Below are positions 7,440 through 14,374 of a DNA stretch of 57,185 nt, piece by piece (within the stretch, counting starts at the first letter, position 1; every line of letters begins with the position of its first letter). The position numbers were made by a program, and so were the translations under genes. Where the stretch lies: positions 1-57,185 of the forward strand of contig NZ_JAUYUS010000092.1 of assembly GCF_030694575.1 (NCBI RefSeq), in the 5' to 3' direction. The notes under the pieces were generated by a model that saw only the letters and a program-made list of their open reading frames with translations, made no database searches and was not told the DNA's origin. The stretch comes from Parvibaculum sp. (lineage in GTDB: Bacteria > Pseudomonadota > Alphaproteobacteria > Parvibaculales > Parvibaculaceae).

Positions 7440-7808
7440 CTAGCGGGCGACGCCGTCCGGCGTGATGCCCTGCCGCGTCGTGGAGCCGGCGCTGAAATCG
7501 TTGATCCGGTCGAGCTGCTTCTGCTTCTGGATCTTCTCCTCGCGCTGCCGGCGCTCATATTCTTCCGCATACATTTCGGCGTCGTGGAGTTCCGGCGTGT
7601 CGTACTCCTCGTCGATATCCGAGCGGTAGTTGACGGGCGGCGAGTCGACGGGGTCCGAGAGCTCGTAAAGCGCGCCGGAATCGGCGGGCGGCGTTTCCCC
7701 GGCTTCCTGAGCCTGCAGCGGAGCGGCGGCGAAGACGAGGGCGAAGGCCGCACCGGCCGCCCAGGCGCGCGTTCTCACCCCGGCGAGGGAAATTACTGTT
7801 CCGGTCAT
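7440..7808 (-). CDS. Small secreted hypothetical protein
   Basis: This is a 122-residue product that I do not recognise as a named family. It has a clear signal peptide (about residues 1-34, cleavage near LQAQEAGE). The mature part is short, acidic and charged, with Asp/Glu/Tyr-rich stretches (DIDEEYDTPELHDAEMY) followed by a predicted helical, coiled-coil-like segment with many Glu, Arg, Lys and Gln residues (YERRQREEKIQKQKQLDRIN). No cysteine or enzymatic motif is seen. The start ATG at 7806-7808 has AAGGAAGG eight bases upstream; a start seven codons earlier has none. It converges on tamB with a nine-base gap. It may be a periplasmic or envelope accessory protein, but that rests only on the signal peptide. 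Confidence 0.7.
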   Translation of the reverse strand: MTGTVISLAGVRTRAWAAGAAFALVFAAAPLQAQEAGETPPADSGALYELSDPVDSPPVNYRSDIDEEYDTPELHDAEMYAEEYERRQREEKIQKQKQLDRINDFSAGSTTRQGITPDGVAR

Positions 7809-8031
7809 TCGACACCCTTCCTTCATCAACCGCCCCAGCCCCGGCAGGGACCGTCCGAACGGGAACTATACAGGAAAGCCGCCAAGCCGGCACTCGCGGA
7901 TTTCAGCCGGAAAGTGGCCGCCGCCGCCCGATGACGGCAGCGGGGGCCGGACGATCTGCCGCAGCCGCAACGGGCCGGCGGACACTCTGTCGCGGGGGTC
8001 CGGGCAGGGAAAATAGGTACAGTTTTTATGT

Positions 8032-8097: not shown

Positions 8098-8418
8098 ATG
8101 ACGAAGGTTACTTATATCGAGTTCAACGGAACGGAACACAGCGTCGATGTCGCCGACGGCCTGTCGGTGATGGAGGGTGCGGTTCGCTACACCATTCCCG
8201 GCATCGAAGGCGATTGCGGCGGCGCCTGCGCCTGCGCGACCTGCCACGTCTATGTGGAGGGCGGCTGGTTCGACAAGCTTGCGCCAATGGATGAACTCGA
8301 ACGCGACATGCTCGATTTCGCCTTCGACGTGAAAGAGAACAGCCGCCTTTCCTGCCAGATCAAGGTCGACCCGTCGCTCGACGGGCTCGTCGTGAAGACG
8401 CCCGCGCGCCAGTACTAG
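8098..8418 (+). CDS. Adrenodoxin/putidaredoxin-type [2Fe-2S] ferredoxin
   Basis: This 106-residue soluble electron-transfer protein has the vertebrate-type ferredoxin fold. The cluster ligands are visible as C-x5-C-x2-C within CGGACACATC (residues 41-50) and a fourth Cys in SRLSCQIK near residue 84. The acidic ED-rich segment after WFDKLAPMDELERDML resembles the partner-binding helix of this class. Such ferredoxins normally feed electrons to a P450 or another oxygenase from an NAD(P)H-dependent reductase; neither a P450 nor a reductase is in this window. The next gene encodes a diiron ferritin-like protein, so an electron-donor role for that protein is a reasonable inference. The start has GGGAG five bases upstream. 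Confidence 0.9.
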   Translation: MTKVTYIEFNGTEHSVDVADGLSVMEGAVRYTIPGIEGDCGGACACATCHVYVEGGWFDKLAPMDELERDMLDFAFDVKENSRLSCQIKVDPSLDGLVVKTPARQY

Positions 8419-8445
8419 AGAGACATAGCGAGATCAGGAACCACC

Positions 8446-8473
8446 GGCCGCACAGAAGAGAAAACAAGCGGCC
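8446..8473 (+). other. Inverted repeat between ferredoxin and diiron genes
   Basis: GGCCGC (8446-8451) and GCGGCC (8468-8473) form a 6-bp stem around a purine-rich 16-nt loop, just ahead of the strong ribosome binding site AGGAGG of the diiron gene. It has no T-tract, so it looks more like an mRNA-stability or translation-tuning hairpin than a terminator. Confidence 0.35.
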
Positions 8474-8490
8474 AAGTCAGGAGGAAGACC

Positions 8491-9588
8491 ATGAGTGCCA
8501 ATGCCAAGGTCGTCTCGAAGGGCGACTGGAAAGTTTCGATGACGCCGGACGACATCTATCGCAACCCGATGGATATCGCCTGGACGTTCAAATACATCTT
8601 TTCGGAAGACAAGGTCGAAGACCTCTACAAGCGGGCGAAGCAGAACCAGTGGGATTCCGACGACCTGCTGCCGTGGGACACGCAGGTGGACCCGTCGCGC
8701 CCGCTGATCGCGAACGACAGCGACATCTACCACAAGATGCCGTTCTTCAAGCGGCTGTCGAAATCGCAGCAGGAAACCTTCACCGCGCATTCGACGGCGC
8801 AACTGCTGTCGCAGTTCCTGCATGGCGAGCAGGGCGCGCTGATGACGGCGGCCTGCGTCACGCATTCCGTGCCGGACGCGGGTGCGAAACTCTATGCCGC
8901 CACGCAGACGATGGACGAGGCGCGGCATGTGGAGGTCTATGCCAAATATTGCGAGAAGATCGCGCTCGTCTACCCGATGTCGCCGTGGCTGAAGCAGCTG
9001 ATCGACGTGACGCTGCAATCCGACCGCTACGAGAAGGTGATGATCGGCATGAACATGATCGTGGAGGGGCTCGCGCTCGGCGCCTTCAACAACATGTACC
9101 GCACGACGACCTGCCCGCTTCTGAAGCAGCTCACCTTCAACGTGATGCGCGATGAATCGCGGCATGTGTCGTTCGGCCACGTGTTTCTCGGGCCGGTGTT
9201 CAAGAAGATGCACAAGGACGACCTCGAGGAACTCGCCGAGTTCGCGTTCCAGGCGGTCAACATTCTCGTCAAGGCGCAGACGGCGGGGACGATCGCCAAC
9301 AAGGTCGATCCCGGCTTCATGCAGGTGCTGGAGAACAGCGGCATCGACGCCGACGACTTCTTCAAGGGATTGAAGGAGGCCCAGGACGCGGGTATCGCCA
9401 GCGAGTTGCCGCCCGGCCAGGTGCATGCGCTGAAGGATCTGATGATGCCGGCGCTGGCACGCGTCGGGTTGCTGACGCCGACCGCGCGCAAGAAGTACGA
9501 CGAAGCGGGCATTCCCGTGTTCGACGACATCCGCGTGCTGCAGGCGATGGAAGGCGGACATCCGACCGGCGAAGCCGCGGCGGAGTAG
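8491..9588 (+). CDS. Ferritin-like carboxylate-bridged diiron protein, putative oxygenase
   Basis: This 365-residue soluble protein carries the full ligand set of a diiron four-helix bundle: E113 (GEQGAL), E143 and H146 (DEARH), E192 (VEGLAL), and E222 and H225 (DESRH). This E-ExxH-E-ExxH pattern is that of ribonucleotide reductase R2, AurF-like N-oxygenases and related oxidases, not of iron-storage ferritin. The length is larger than a plain ferritin. The substrate is unknown. It has an excellent ribosome binding site (AGGAGG, 7 nt before ATG) and follows the ferredoxin gene by 72 nt, suggesting a ferredoxin-fed oxygenase pair. A strong hairpin (9606-9637) separates it from the downstream PAS gene. 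Confidence 0.85.
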   Translation: MSANAKVVSKGDWKVSMTPDDIYRNPMDIAWTFKYIFSEDKVEDLYKRAKQNQWDSDDLLPWDTQVDPSRPLIANDSDIYHKMPFFKRLSKSQQETFTAHSTAQLLSQFLHGEQGALMTAACVTHSVPDAGAKLYAATQTMDEARHVEVYAKYCEKIALVYPMSPWLKQLIDVTLQSDRYEKVMIGMNMIVEGLALGAFNNMYRTTTCPLLKQLTFNVMRDESRHVSFGHVFLGPVFKKMHKDDLEELAEFAFQAVNILVKAQTAGTIANKVDPGFMQVLENSGIDADDFFKGLKEAQDAGIASELPPGQVHALKDLMMPALARVGLLTPTARKKYDEAGIPVFDDIRVLQAMEGGHPTGEAAAE

Positions 9589-9605
9589 GACGAAGGGGAA
9601 CCGAG

Positions 9606-9637
9606 GGCGTTCCGGCGGTTCGGGCCGCCGGGACGCC
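9606..9637 (+). other. Strong 13-bp stem-loop after the diiron gene
   Basis: The arms 9606-9618 and 9625-9637 pair along all 13 positions with one G-U pair, around a TTCGGG loop. There is no T-run after it. It sits 17 nt after the diiron stop and 33 nt before the PAS gene start, so it may protect or process the upstream mRNA, or act as a weak terminator. Confidence 0.6.
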
Positions 9638-9669
9638 ACCGGCTATTGTCGCGTGGAAGGAGAGACGAG

Positions 9670-10469
9670 ATGGCGAAGGCAGGCAAGACGGACGGGCGCG
9701 ACGAGGAGCAACCGGATTTCCACCGCACACTGGTGGAGGGCATACCGGAGGCGATCATCGTTTCGACGCCGGAGGGAGAGATCACCTATTTCAATCCCGC
9801 CTCCGAACGGCTGCTCGGCTACAAGGCGGGTGAGGTGACCGGCAAGAGCATCACCGTGCTCGTGCCGCAGCAACCGGGACGCCGCGCCGATCCCGTGAAG
9901 TGGCTGGCGCGCTGGGCGGCGGAGCCGGAACACGAACAATCGCGCTTTCTCGACCTGATCGGGCGGCACAAGGACGGGCACGAGATGCCGGTCGATGTGC
10001 GCGTGGTGGAGGCGAGCATCGGCGGCGCACCGCGCTTCCTCATCACGTTCCGCGACAACAGCGTGCGGCGGCAGGAGCAGATCGCCTACAAGGACCGCAA
10101 CCTGCTGTTCTCGCGCATCCTGATGGTGGCGGAAGACGGGATCATCTCGGTCGATGCGGAGCAGAAGATTTCGTTCTTCAACCTGAAGGCGGAGAAGATG
10201 TTCGGCTACCGGGCGGAAGAAGTGCTGGGACAGCCGCTCGACATGCTGCTGCCCGAACGGTTCCGCAGGCCGCATACCGGACAGGTGAAGGCCTTCGGCA
10301 CATCGAAGGACGCCTCACGCTGGATGAGCGAGCGCGGGCCGGTGACGGGGCGCCGCAAGGACGGCACGGAATTCCCGGTCGACGCGACCATCACCAAGGT
10401 CGAGAGCGGTGGCAAGATCACCTATACGGCGCATTTGCGCAGCAGCGCGGGCAAGACAACCCGCCTTGG

Positions 10470-10473
<4 letters not shown>
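9670..10473 (+). CDS. Double-PAS sensory protein without output domain
   Basis: This 267-residue soluble protein contains two PAS domains in tandem, about residues 20-130 and 140-260. Both show the usual features: EAIIVSTPEGEITYFNPASERLLGY then FRDNS, and DGIISVDAEQKISFFNLKAEKMFGY then RRKDGTEFPVDATI. No kinase, cyclase, HTH or methyl-accepting region follows, so it is a stand-alone ligand, redox or light sensor that must act through a partner. The start ATG 9670 has AAGGAG eight bases upstream; an upstream TTG at 9646 is less likely. It lies downstream of the ferredoxin/diiron pair on the same strand. Its stop overlaps that of the convergent MDR gene by four bases. Confidence 0.85.
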
Positions 10474-11492
<1,019 letters not shown>

Positions 11493-11511: not shown

Positions 11512-13407
11512 TCACGGCATCACGATTTCGAACCAGAAGTCGAAGCGGTCGAGCATCGACAGGAGATCGGCAAAGGGCTCGCGCGCGCCTTCGATCGTCA
11601 TCGATTTGTCGGCAAGCGCGGCGGCGAAGGCGCGTTCGCCGATGACGAGTTCGGCCAGCACGGCGCGGGTGAGAGAGACGGACGGCGCCCTGGGGTCTTT
11701 TCTTTTCGCGTAGTGGTGCAGCACCGCGTTTTCGAGCGTCACAAGGAAGTGCTCGTTCGTGTCGGTGAAGTGGATGTTGAGCGCGATTTCATGCGCGCCC
11801 GCCTTTTCGCCGTTGAGGCGGACGGAGAGCGAATCCAGCAACTGCTCCGCCGGGAGCGCGCGCATCTGGCCCGCCGCGCCCTGACGCGGCTCGGTGGCGG
11901 GCGGACGCGGATTGCGAAGCTCCATCGCGGCGGTGAGATAGAAGCCGCGCCACGGACCGGACTCCGCCTGATAGCCGAGCTGTTCCAGCGCATCGGCCTG
12001 CAGGTGGCGGGCGTCCGCATTGTCCGGGTCGGCGAAGACGAGGTGGTTCACGAGTTCGGCAACCCAGCGATAGTCGCCATGCTCGTAGGCGGCGCGGGCT
12101 TTTTTCAGCAGCGCGTCCGCGCCGCCCGCGAGATCGACGTAGCGCTTGCCGGCTTCGACGGGCGGATGCTTGTGGAGGTTGGCGGGGTTGCCGTCGAACC
12201 AGCCGAGATAGCGCTGGTAGACGGCCTTGGCGTTGTGATTGAGCGTGCCGTAATAGCCACGCGTGTACCATTCGGAAGCGAGGGTCGGCGGCAGGGCCAG
12301 TTCCTCGGCGATTTCCAGCGGCGTGAGGCCGTGGTTCGCCATGCGGAGCGTCTGGTCGTGGACATATTTATAGAGGTCGCGCTGCTTCTTCAGGAAGGCG
12401 ACCGCCGTTTCGCTGCCCCAGCGCGGCCAGTGATGGCTGGCGAAGAGGACATCGGCTTCCTTGCCGAAGAGCTCGATCGCCTCGTCGATGTACCAGCTCC
12501 ACGACTTCGCGTCGCGGACCTGCGCGCCGCGCGGCGTGTAGATGTTGTGGAGGTGGCAGGAGCAGTTCTCGGCCATGCAGAGCGCCTTGAACTGCGGGAA
12601 GTAGAAATTCATTTCGGCGGGCGCTTCGGTGTCGGGCGTGACCTGGAAGACGATCTCGACGCCGTCGACGACGATCTTCGTGCCCGTCTGCGAGATGCTC
12701 TCTGTCGGCGGCACGAGGCTCACCTGCCCCATCGACACGGTCTTGCCGAGACCGGCGTCGATATGGCCTTTCGCGTTTCGCGGCAGGAGCGCGCCATACA
12801 TATAAGTGGCGCGACGGCCCATCGCGTTGCCCGCCAGCACGTTTTCGCTGACGGCTTCCTCGAGGAAGCCTTCGGGCGCGATGATGCGCAGCCCGTTCTT
12901 GATGTCCTCGTCGCTCAGCACGCCGCGCACGCCGCCGTAGTGGTCGACATGGCTGTGGGTGTAGATGACGGCGGTGACGGGCTTGTCGCCGCGGTGCTGG
13001 CGCATCAATGCGAGCGCGGCGGCGGCAGGCTCGGCGGAGATCAGCGGGTCGATGACAATGTAGCCGGTGTCGCCTTCGATGAAGGTGATGTTGGAGAGGT
13101 CGAAGTTGCGGACCTGATAGATGCCGGGCACGACCTCGAACAGGCCGTGGACGAGATTGAGCTTCGCCTGACGCCAGAGGCTGGGGTTCACCGTATCCGG
13201 GCAGCCGCAGCCATCGCCCTGAAAGGCGAAGGTGCTCATGTCCCAGACGGCATGGCCCGCTTCGTTGAGGATTTTCGCATCGGGGATCGTGCCCATGAAG
13301 CCGCGCGTGGCAAGGCCCATGTCCTCGTCCGTATCCGGCGGCAACTGCCGCGCGAGGGCGGCATGTGCGCGGCGCGTGGCTTCCGTGGCGTCTTTCGGCT
13401 GTTCCAT
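11512..13407 (-). CDS. Alkyl sulfatase of the SdsA1/BDS1 type (metallo-beta-lactamase superfamily)
   Basis: This 631-residue enzyme is predicted to hydrolyse linear alkyl sulfates such as dodecyl sulfate to alcohol plus sulfate with a binuclear zinc centre. The metal motif is THSHVDHYGG (H151, H153, D155, H156). Further conserved ligands are expected in CMAENCSCHLHN and in SHHWPRWG. Domains in order are a beta-lactamase-like catalytic domain (about 95-330), a helical dimerisation domain (about 350-490) and a C-terminal SCP2-like lipid-binding domain (about 500-625). No signal peptide is visible, unlike secreted SdsA1, so a cytosolic place is inferred. It is followed by an MDR oxidoreductase and preceded by a hairpin in its 5' leader (13420-13437). 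Confidence 0.92.
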   Translation of the reverse strand: MEQPKDATEATRRAHAALARQLPPDTDEDMGLATRGFMGTIPDAKILNEAGHAVWDMSTFAFQGDGCGCPDTVNPSLWRQAKLNLVHGLFEVVPGIYQVRNFDLSNITFIEGDTGYIVIDPLISAEPAAAALALMRQHRGDKPVTAVIYTHSHVDHYGGVRGVLSDEDIKNGLRIIAPEGFLEEAVSENVLAGNAMGRRATYMYGALLPRNAKGHIDAGLGKTVSMGQVSLVPPTESISQTGTKIVVDGVEIVFQVTPDTEAPAEMNFYFPQFKALCMAENCSCHLHNIYTPRGAQVRDAKSWSWYIDEAIELFGKEADVLFASHHWPRWGSETAVAFLKKQRDLYKYVHDQTLRMANHGLTPLEIAEELALPPTLASEWYTRGYYGTLNHNAKAVYQRYLGWFDGNPANLHKHPPVEAGKRYVDLAGGADALLKKARAAYEHGDYRWVAELVNHLVFADPDNADARHLQADALEQLGYQAESGPWRGFYLTAAMELRNPRPPATEPRQGAAGQMRALPAEQLLDSLSVRLNGEKAGAHEIALNIHFTDTNEHFLVTLENAVLHHYAKRKDPRAPSVSLTRAVLAELVIGERAFAAALADKSMTIEGAREPFADLLSMLDRFDFWFEIVMP

Positions 13408-13528: not shown

Positions 13529-14044
13529 CTATGCTTCGCCCGTCATCGAAAAATGAGTGACGAGATAGAGCATGTCGATCTCGGCGCCTGTCGTGCTCAA
13601 GGGGGCCATGATCATTTCGAAGCGGATGAAGCTCTTGTCCTGATGAAGGACCCGCCCGGTCGCGCGGAGCGGCGCGCCGATTTCGAGGAGGGCGGCGGCG
13701 GCACTGCGCCAGCGCTCCAGGATTTCAGGTGCGAGCACCGCGGGAAGCGGCTTGTTATGGATGGGGCCGAAGACTTCCTCGAACTTCGAGCCGGCGAGGC
13801 GCGGGAAAATCTCGAGACCGCCGGGGGCCTTTCGCAACTCGAACAGGCAGAGATGCGGCAGGAGGCGGACAATGTCTTCCGGCCTGATGTCGGAGCGGAG
13901 CGGCATGGGGCGCCCGGCGGCCTGCTTCTGCCAATAGGCAAGACCTTCGCGGACTTCCGGCGCGACGCATTCGAGCGCCGGGTCGAGATCGATCGGCGGC
14001 AGCGCGATCGATCTGTAGCTCAGGCTTTCGTTGGTCATCCGCAT
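13529..14044 (-). CDS. PAS_5-family (PF07310) regulatory-type protein
   Basis: This 171-residue protein matches the alphaproteobacterial PAS_5 family: an N-terminal helix with YWQKQAAGRPMPLRSDIRPEDI, then LLPHLCLFEL and a PAS-like core (residues about 60-165). Family members are single-domain cytosolic proteins with no known enzyme activity and are presumed sensors or adaptors. The start chosen is ATG 14042-14044, because GGGGAGG lies seven bases upstream; an alternative ten codons earlier would include that site in the coding region. It lies 121 nt upstream of the alkyl sulfatase on the same strand, so it could be co-transcribed, but the link is not proven. Confidence 0.82.
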   Translation of the reverse strand: MRMTNESLSYRSIALPPIDLDPALECVAPEVREGLAYWQKQAAGRPMPLRSDIRPEDIVRLLPHLCLFELRKAPGGLEIFPRLAGSKFEEVFGPIHNKPLPAVLAPEILERWRSAAAALLEIGAPLRATGRVLHQDKSFIRFEMIMAPLSTTGAEIDMLYLVTHFSMTGEA

Positions 14045-14374
14045 GTTCGGCACCTCCCCACCCGGCACTCCCAAGCCGACCGAAAGAGCCTAATACGGCC
14101 CTGAAAAAAGGCAAAACGCCGATTTTTCGAGAGGGAACCGGCCAGTTTGCGGCGGCGCCCGCGAGATGCGTCACAAAATCGCTGGCAGGAAGCAAAGTAT
14201 GATATTGCGAGGCATTATTATTTGTGTTTGAACAGCGGCTGGAAGCGTATGCGGCTTGCGCCGATGCGCGCAATCAGTGGTGGCCGACAGGCGCACCGGT
14301 TCGCCGGGAAACGATCCGGGAACGGCCGGGCGTTGCCGGCATTGGTACCGTCGCCGGACTGTCGCGGCGCATGA
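14045..14374. other. 330-bp divergent intergenic region (PAS_5 / exbB)
   Basis: No convincing gene is seen here. It holds AT-rich patches at 14102-14130 and 14190-14230 and the imperfect palindrome annotated at 14200-14220. It should contain the promoters for both the PAS_5 gene (minus) and the exbB operon (plus), but no clean sigma-70 match could be fixed by eye. Confidence 0.6.
14200..14220. promoter_or_regulatory. Imperfect 9-3-9 palindrome, candidate iron-regulator site
   Basis: TGATATTGC-GAG-GCATTATTA pairs in seven of nine arm positions and is AT-rich in GC-rich DNA. It lies about 155 bp upstream of exbB. TonB energising systems are commonly controlled by Fur/Mur, Irr or RirA; this resembles but does not exactly match such boxes. 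Confidence 0.35.

Follow-up and report, generated by a model that had tools for sequence, protein, structure and literature searches.

The stretch of DNA analyzed here (the window) comprises 57,185 nucleotides of a Parvibaculum-like genome (contig NZ_JAUYUS010000092.1, positions 1 to 57,185, forward strand); its nearest full-length matches, most of which carry the label Parvibaculum, share 93–96% identity with it in the diiron protein described below. Three neighbouring genes on the + strand, confirmed as open reading frames at these positions, encode a [2Fe-2S] ferredoxin of 106 amino acids (8098–8418), a predicted ferritin-like diiron oxidase/oxygenase of 365 amino acids with an AurF/R2lox-like fold (8491–9588) and a PAS-PAS protein of 267 amino acids without an output domain (9670–10473). 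Tentatively, and with confidence a little short of even, we read the trio as a diiron oxidase/oxygenase that is induced by microoxia, receives electrons from the ferredoxin and has an O2-sensing PAS partner of FixL type without a kinase.

A contig scan returned 92 relatives, and the 80 best-matching loci (60–97% identity over the best segment) make up the orthologous set. Linkage was scored by tblastn; the ferredoxin gene was counted when it lay within 4 kb of the diiron gene and on its strand, and the PAS gene when it lay within 1.5 kb. The ferredoxin gene was found at 72/80 loci, the PAS gene at 61/80 and both at 58/80. Among the eight ferredoxin misses, the gene was absent from the available flank in L050, L070, L072 and L075, and the flank was too short to judge in L061, L067, L068 and L087; flanks were likewise too short in three of the 19 PAS-gene misses (L011, L024, L066), leaving 77 informative loci. 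The gene order is ferredoxin-diiron-PAS in alphaproteobacteria and diiron-PAS-ferredoxin in the gammaproteobacterial loci with all three genes, where the PAS and ferredoxin genes abut or overlap. The preliminary description of this DNA had joined the three genes from their adjacency in the window; in most of the other loci they stay together, contrary to the condition that would have refuted that link, and recurrence of the module in two classes and in two gene orders led us to reject chance adjacency. Since the end of the PAS gene meets a convergent CurA-like gene and a divergent small open reading frame lies upstream, the transcription unit appears to consist of the three genes, which would be co-transcribed.

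The ferredoxin matches Pfam Fer2 at 42.8 bits and contains cysteines spaced Cys40-x5-Cys46-x2-Cys49...Cys86 (translation read by eye). Its best PDB matches are the R. palustris ferredoxin 3hui (2.5e-38), FdVI (4.2e-33) and putidaredoxin (~1e-28), and both the C-x5-C-x2-C...C motif and these top matches place it in the putidaredoxin/PuxB/FdVI type, in keeping with its earlier assignment as an oxygenase-donor-type ferredoxin. Ferredoxins of this type often serve cytochromes P450; the window protein shares their sequence family, but the oxidase adjoining it is the diiron protein, not a P450. Together with the linkage, these matches make it the presumed electron donor.

The diiron protein was aligned with 61 of the 76 available ortholog translations, the rows being picked by hand for length and variety (62 rows including the window). 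Glu113, Glu143-x-x-His146, Glu192 and Glu222-x-x-His225 were invariant in 62/62 rows, bearing out the complete E-ExxH-E-ExxH diiron ligand set noticed earlier. The accompanying remark that the protein has no obvious named subfamily did not hold, as Pfam AurF (PF11583) matches it at 52.6 bits against a cut-off of 29.6 bits. No NCBIfam model reached its cut-off, including those for R2lox (NF006200, 32.7 bits against 194; NF006198, 19.2 bits against 274), and weak sequence matches were to aldehyde-deformylating oxygenase and R2-like oxidases. A model of the protein was predicted with a mean pLDDT (predicted local distance difference test) of 79.9, residues 1–10, 13–37 and 356–365 falling below 50. 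Its top Foldseek match was AurF (2jcd_B, 7.8e-6), and in the VIA comparison the top three rows were AurF (3chu: Z 21.3, root-mean-square deviation (rmsd) 3.3, 271 residues aligned), with R2F and R2lox about equal (Z ~20–21; 4ac8_B: Z 20.9, rmsd 4.3 over 259; 6f6f: Z 20.4, rmsd 3.2 over 240). AurF was missing from the PDB sequence matches listed at expect values (E) up to 1 or up to 10. Because AurF, R2F and R2lox match about equally, the predicted fold supports an O2-activating dimetal enzyme and points to no particular reaction.

Despite the Pfam score and the fold, the protein was not filed as an AurF N-oxygenase, because the third histidine ligand is missing. According to passages of PMC9478400, this ligand is common to AurF, CmlI and DnfA, and in DnfA is His209, four residues before Glu213. 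The corresponding residue of the diiron protein is Val218, invariant in the 62 rows, so that the seven-ligand, three-histidine site of AurF/CmlI-type N-oxygenases is not found in it. What it shares with AurF, CmlI and DnfA is the Pfam score over cut-off, the ferritin-like diiron fold, and four carboxylates and two of the three histidines in order; it differs in the valine, in two DE-x-RH motifs (DEARH and DESRH), in its ferredoxin and heme-PAS-like partners and in the low-oxygen box that its relatives carry upstream. It resembles R2lox in fold and in an E / ExxH / E / ExxH ligand set without a third histidine, and differs in falling far below the NCBIfam cut-off, in its ferredoxin partner and in its ligand spacing of 30/49/30, which is longer in R2lox.

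For the PAS protein, the likelier start is the ATG at 9670, which is preceded by a ribosome site (AGGAGAG), rather than the TTG at 9646. Two PAS domains and no further Pfam domain over cut-off were found, in line with the preliminary description; the histidine kinase output of FixL is absent. The predicted model (pLDDT 88.2) has its best fold matches in DosP and FixL, and phmmer likewise returned FixL (3.5e-15) and DosP (1e-11). The second domain (PAS2, ~154–262) is FixL-like: its model superposes on the BjFixL heme domain 1lt0 with Z 16.9, rmsd 2.3 and 32% identity over 110 aligned residues, and residues 155–267 align on BjFixL 153–265, placing His202 at FixL His200 and Arg222 at Arg220, the heme-ligating histidine and the distal arginine of FixL, respectively. 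Both residues were invariant in 47/47 rows of an alignment of the window protein with 46 of 55 translations, hand-picked (two rows are identical, leaving 46 distinct). As a control, the spacing P-x6-H-x19-R was sought in the 22 PAS domains of the window's own genome and occurred in four: the trio PAS2, FixL, a 1054-amino acid protein and L153, which looks like a chance match. The PAS domain of the 1054-amino acid protein (L147, G000 C54:53694-54032), with its PAS2-like His/Arg spacing, is also the best other match to the trio PAS2 among the PAS domains of that genome (136 bits).

The tandem PAS layout resembles FixL as well (8js6_C: Z 17.0, rmsd 3.8, 230 aligned). In PAS1, Trp78 and Trp82 are invariant and LOV structures are among the fold matches, so this domain may have a flavin or redox role. 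The PAS protein is a probable heme oxygen sensor, heme binding being suggested by the likeness of PAS2 to FixL in fold, sequence and His/Arg positions. The trio had been proposed to carry its own redox or substrate sensor; because the protein is most like the heme O2 sensors FixL and DosP, oxygen is better supported than a substrate as its signal, and a redox role survives as a possibility through PAS1. Unlike FixL and DosP, the window protein has no kinase or phosphodiesterase, and proteins of its relatives carry a third PAS domain. Many relatives are ~390 amino acids long, and most Parvibaculum-group proteins are ~260–300 and lack that domain, which Pfam located near residues 275–392 in four of the five longer relatives tested (L023, L031, L048, L085) and did not resolve in L077. 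Another tandem PAS protein whose gene lies near those of a diiron oxygenase is MmoS, the redox sensor of soluble methane monooxygenase, which is a flavin sensor of a two-component system. The window PAS protein is like it in lying near a diiron gene and in having MmoS (3ewk) among its fold matches, and differs in lacking a kinase and in carrying a heme-type His/Arg pair in PAS2.

The 350 bases preceding the first gene of each unit were searched for a single motif fixed in advance, the FNR/FixK box (consensus TTGAY-N4-RTCAA). Four of the 80 loci were omitted (L036, L061, L068, L087; upstream region cut by a contig end), and L049 was retained with 137 bases. A perfect box was present in 40 of the 59 usable non-Parvibaculum loci (dinucleotide-shuffle mean, 0.08) and a box with at most one mismatch in 51/59 (shuffle mean, 1.64), while four control patterns shaped like the box gave 0/59 each; perfect boxes were present in both alpha- and gammaproteobacterial loci. 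Genes for cbb3 oxidase, CcoG, HemN or FixK-type or FNR-type regulators, scored by tblastn at more than 80 bits, lay in the available flank of 25 of the 62 non-Parvibaculum loci; over all 80 loci, CcoN was found at 9, HemN at 14, FixK-type genes at 5, FNR-type genes at 4 and OmpW at 5. For HemN, CcoN and CcoG, a single representative of each protein passed its NCBIfam cut-off, and the FixK- and FNR-type regulators fell short. Given these boxes and these neighbours, the module outside Parvibaculum would, on sequence evidence, belong to a low-oxygen regulon. Published regulons share these members: passages of PMC3751524 describe ompW and ccoN of Caulobacter as activated by FixK, and passages of PMC5934665 list fixNOP, ompW1 and hemN2 of Herbaspirillum as Fnr1 targets; Myxococcus NmpRSTU, a different system, is described in passages of PMC11841059 as a low-oxygen regulator of cbb3, hemN and a hemerythrin. 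In a draw of 385 alphaproteobacterial genomes, with orthologs called at 660 bits or more (next group, 207–262 bits), cbb3 (scored as FixO) occurred in 8/8 ortholog-bearing genomes versus 156/385 overall; five of the drawn genomes apparently coincide with L057, L060, L062, L064 and L065, so the draw and the 80 loci are not independent samples. At L046 and L057, homologues of FixL (PAS, HisKA, HATPase), FixJ and FixK adjoin the ferredoxin-diiron pair, and both loci are without the trio PAS gene.

Parvibaculum-group loci carry a GGAC-type element in place of the FNR/FixK box, a pattern search finding both copies (32 bp apart) in 12/17 loci and one copy in five. In the window, copy 1 (GGACGATCTGCCGCA, 7949–7963, +; from the alignment) is a possible operator, and copy 2 (GGACACTCTGTCGC, 7980–7993, +; from alignment and pattern) starts 31 bp after it, about three helical turns. 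Genome-wide, the pattern GGACANTNTGNCGC occurs 5 times (control, 1), and the genes around these 5 sites, judged by reading, form no coherent regulon. The own ccoN and trio upstream regions have one common 8-mer (exact comparison, one orientation). FixL-like and FixK-like genes are present in the genome, each scoring under its NCBIfam cut-off. The two GGAC elements resemble the RegR/ActR/PrrA consensus and might be a box of that kind, but the passages of PMC4064962 consulted give no consensus.

On the reading favoured here, the trio would be one transcription unit for a low-oxygen-induced oxidizing system, made when O2 is scarce, together with cbb3 oxidase and HemN, with FNR/FixK in control in most genomes that carry it outside Parvibaculum, and a different operator serving in Parvibaculum. 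The putidaredoxin-type ferredoxin would give electrons to the ferritin-fold diiron enzyme, which would activate O2 and, we infer, oxidize an organic substrate; the kinase-less PAS protein, as a FixL-type heme sensor, would read O2 and, through contact between proteins, gate either the enzyme or the flow of electrons to it. That O2 binding by this heme-PAS protein switches the diiron enzyme or the ferredoxin directly is a more doubtful proposal, which we consider less likely than not. Several observations weigh against the reading as a whole. No FNR/FixK box was found in the 17 Parvibaculum-group upstream regions (0/17), even at one mismatch, no perfect box occurs in the window, and the box is absent from 10 kb around the own ccoNOQP, so that control by low oxygen is only extrapolated to the organism of the window. 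The link to cbb3 is unspecific: four of the eight ortholog-bearing genomes belong to one family, and FixO is also present in 8/8 genomes that have only diverged relatives. FNR-type boxes are also bound by nitric oxide-responsive regulators. The PAS gene is absent beside the diiron gene at 16/77 informative loci, including the Novosphingobium-labelled L040, L042 and L047, and is therefore not obligatory. The phmmer alignment matches the FixL histidine but displaces the arginine by one residue around a gap, and the loci have no substrate-pathway neighbour in common.

Some of these points would suit a diiron protein that acts as a protective reductase or scavenger of O2, peroxide or nitric oxide and shields the microaerobic apparatus, with the ferredoxin as reductant and the heme-PAS protein sensing O2 or nitric oxide. 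The FNR/FixK context with cbb3 and HemN, the lack of common substrate-pathway genes and the use of FNR-type boxes by nitric oxide regulators agree with such a role, and ferritin-like diiron proteins include peroxidases and scavengers. The nearest folds and sequence families, however, are oxygenases and oxidases (AurF, R2lox, aldehyde-deformylating oxygenase), a Streptomyces relative (29% identity) lies inside an adenosine monophosphate (AMP)-ligase/acyl carrier protein biosynthetic cluster, and the L075 copy stands beside thiolase-like, dehydratase-type and nitronate-monooxygenase-type genes, which together leave scavenging a rather improbable account. Less probable again is an AurF/CmlI/DnfA-type N-oxygenase acting on an amine or hydroxylamine: the Pfam AurF score, the best Foldseek match and the top VIA rows speak for it, but the invariant Val218 occupies the place of the third histidine ligand, AurF is tied in Z with R2-type folds, and the listed PDB sequence matches lack AurF up to E 10.

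The PAS protein might also act apart from the enzyme, as a soluble signaller of O2 (or, through PAS1, of flavin or redox state) that acts back on FixL/FixJ or on transcription, an account compatible with the other readings and one to which we would give a minor share of belief. It would share the operon because both enzyme and PAS protein serve low-oxygen functions. Where the PAS gene is missing, the diiron gene remains and in most cases keeps its ferredoxin and box, and at L046 and L057, which lack the PAS gene, FixL, FixJ and FixK genes lie beside the pair; the window's own genome has its FixL-like and FixK-like genes as well. Passages of PMC3751524 present FixT, a kinase inhibitor, as a feedback protein of the FixL/FixJ/FixK network. 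On the other side, the PAS gene, where present, follows the diiron gene, and in gammaproteobacterial loci it touches or overlaps that of the ferredoxin; this arrangement suggests that its product is a partner inside the module.

The usual view of FNR/FixK regulons is that they serve respiration and biosynthesis without O2. A conserved, probably O2-using diiron enzyme in such a regulon, with its own donor and a probable heme sensor, suggests that some bacteria turn on a dedicated oxidation under scarce O2 and raises the question of which reaction merits the remaining oxygen. It would also be uncommon for a heme sensor to be used as a FixL domain that lacks a kinase and stands next to an enzyme; if direct switching is true, the system would be an oxygen-gated oxidase in which sensor output is catalysis, not phosphotransfer, and an undescribed arm of the FNR/FixK response. 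Parvibaculum is known as a degrader of surfactants and hydrocarbons, and a low-oxygen oxygenase there, if true, would for that reason be ecologically interesting. The component families are known, and their combination and its place in a low-oxygen regulon appear undescribed in the literature searched, in which no description of the ferredoxin-diiron-PAS set was found (most subscription journals lay outside its reach); the passages of PMC6515984 consulted contain nothing on it. The module is rare, because only the window's own genome was matched at E <= 1e-100 in a draw of 398 genomes from the phylum (1/398).

A phage-defence role was rejected, since none of the three proteins had a PADLOC match with E of 0.01 or lower. 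The divergent open reading frame upstream (7440–7829, -; 129 amino acids) has no Pfam match over cut-off and is matched at 41–76% identity in 17 Parvibaculum-group loci beside the trio. Downstream, the CurA-like reductase gene (10470–11492) adjoins a gene for an alkyl-sulfatase-like metallo-hydrolase with dimerization and C-terminal domains (11512–13407, -), and both lie beside the trio in many Parvibaculum-group loci. A further gene (13529–14074, -) encodes a PAS_5 protein like MopJ (40 bits, below the NCBIfam cut-off).

Six paralogs of the diiron protein in the own genome (29–38% identity) lie beside unrelated genes; by reading of translations, without a family search, one is near a crotonyl-CoA (coenzyme A)-reductase-like gene and two are near P450-like genes. 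At L089 (G000 C56:63000-80000), two diverged diiron paralogs and two P450-like genes (translations read) are separated by no more than a few kb. In a diverged subfamily (L109–L116), neither the trio ferredoxin nor the trio PAS protein had a match within ~1.5 kb on each side in 8/8 loci, other ferredoxin types not having been sought. Six plasmid records had a match; four were inspected, two of which were unannotated there. One of the records, a Rhodococcus opacus plasmid (L141), places a 34% identical ferritin-like protein between a molybdopterin oxidoreductase (before) and the ferredoxin FdxA (after), a single suggestive case. The gammaproteobacterium UBA2168 has two diiron copies in one genome (L075 and L076), one of them in a trio, and the neighbours of the second copy, L075, are a possible lead to acyl-CoA-type substrates.

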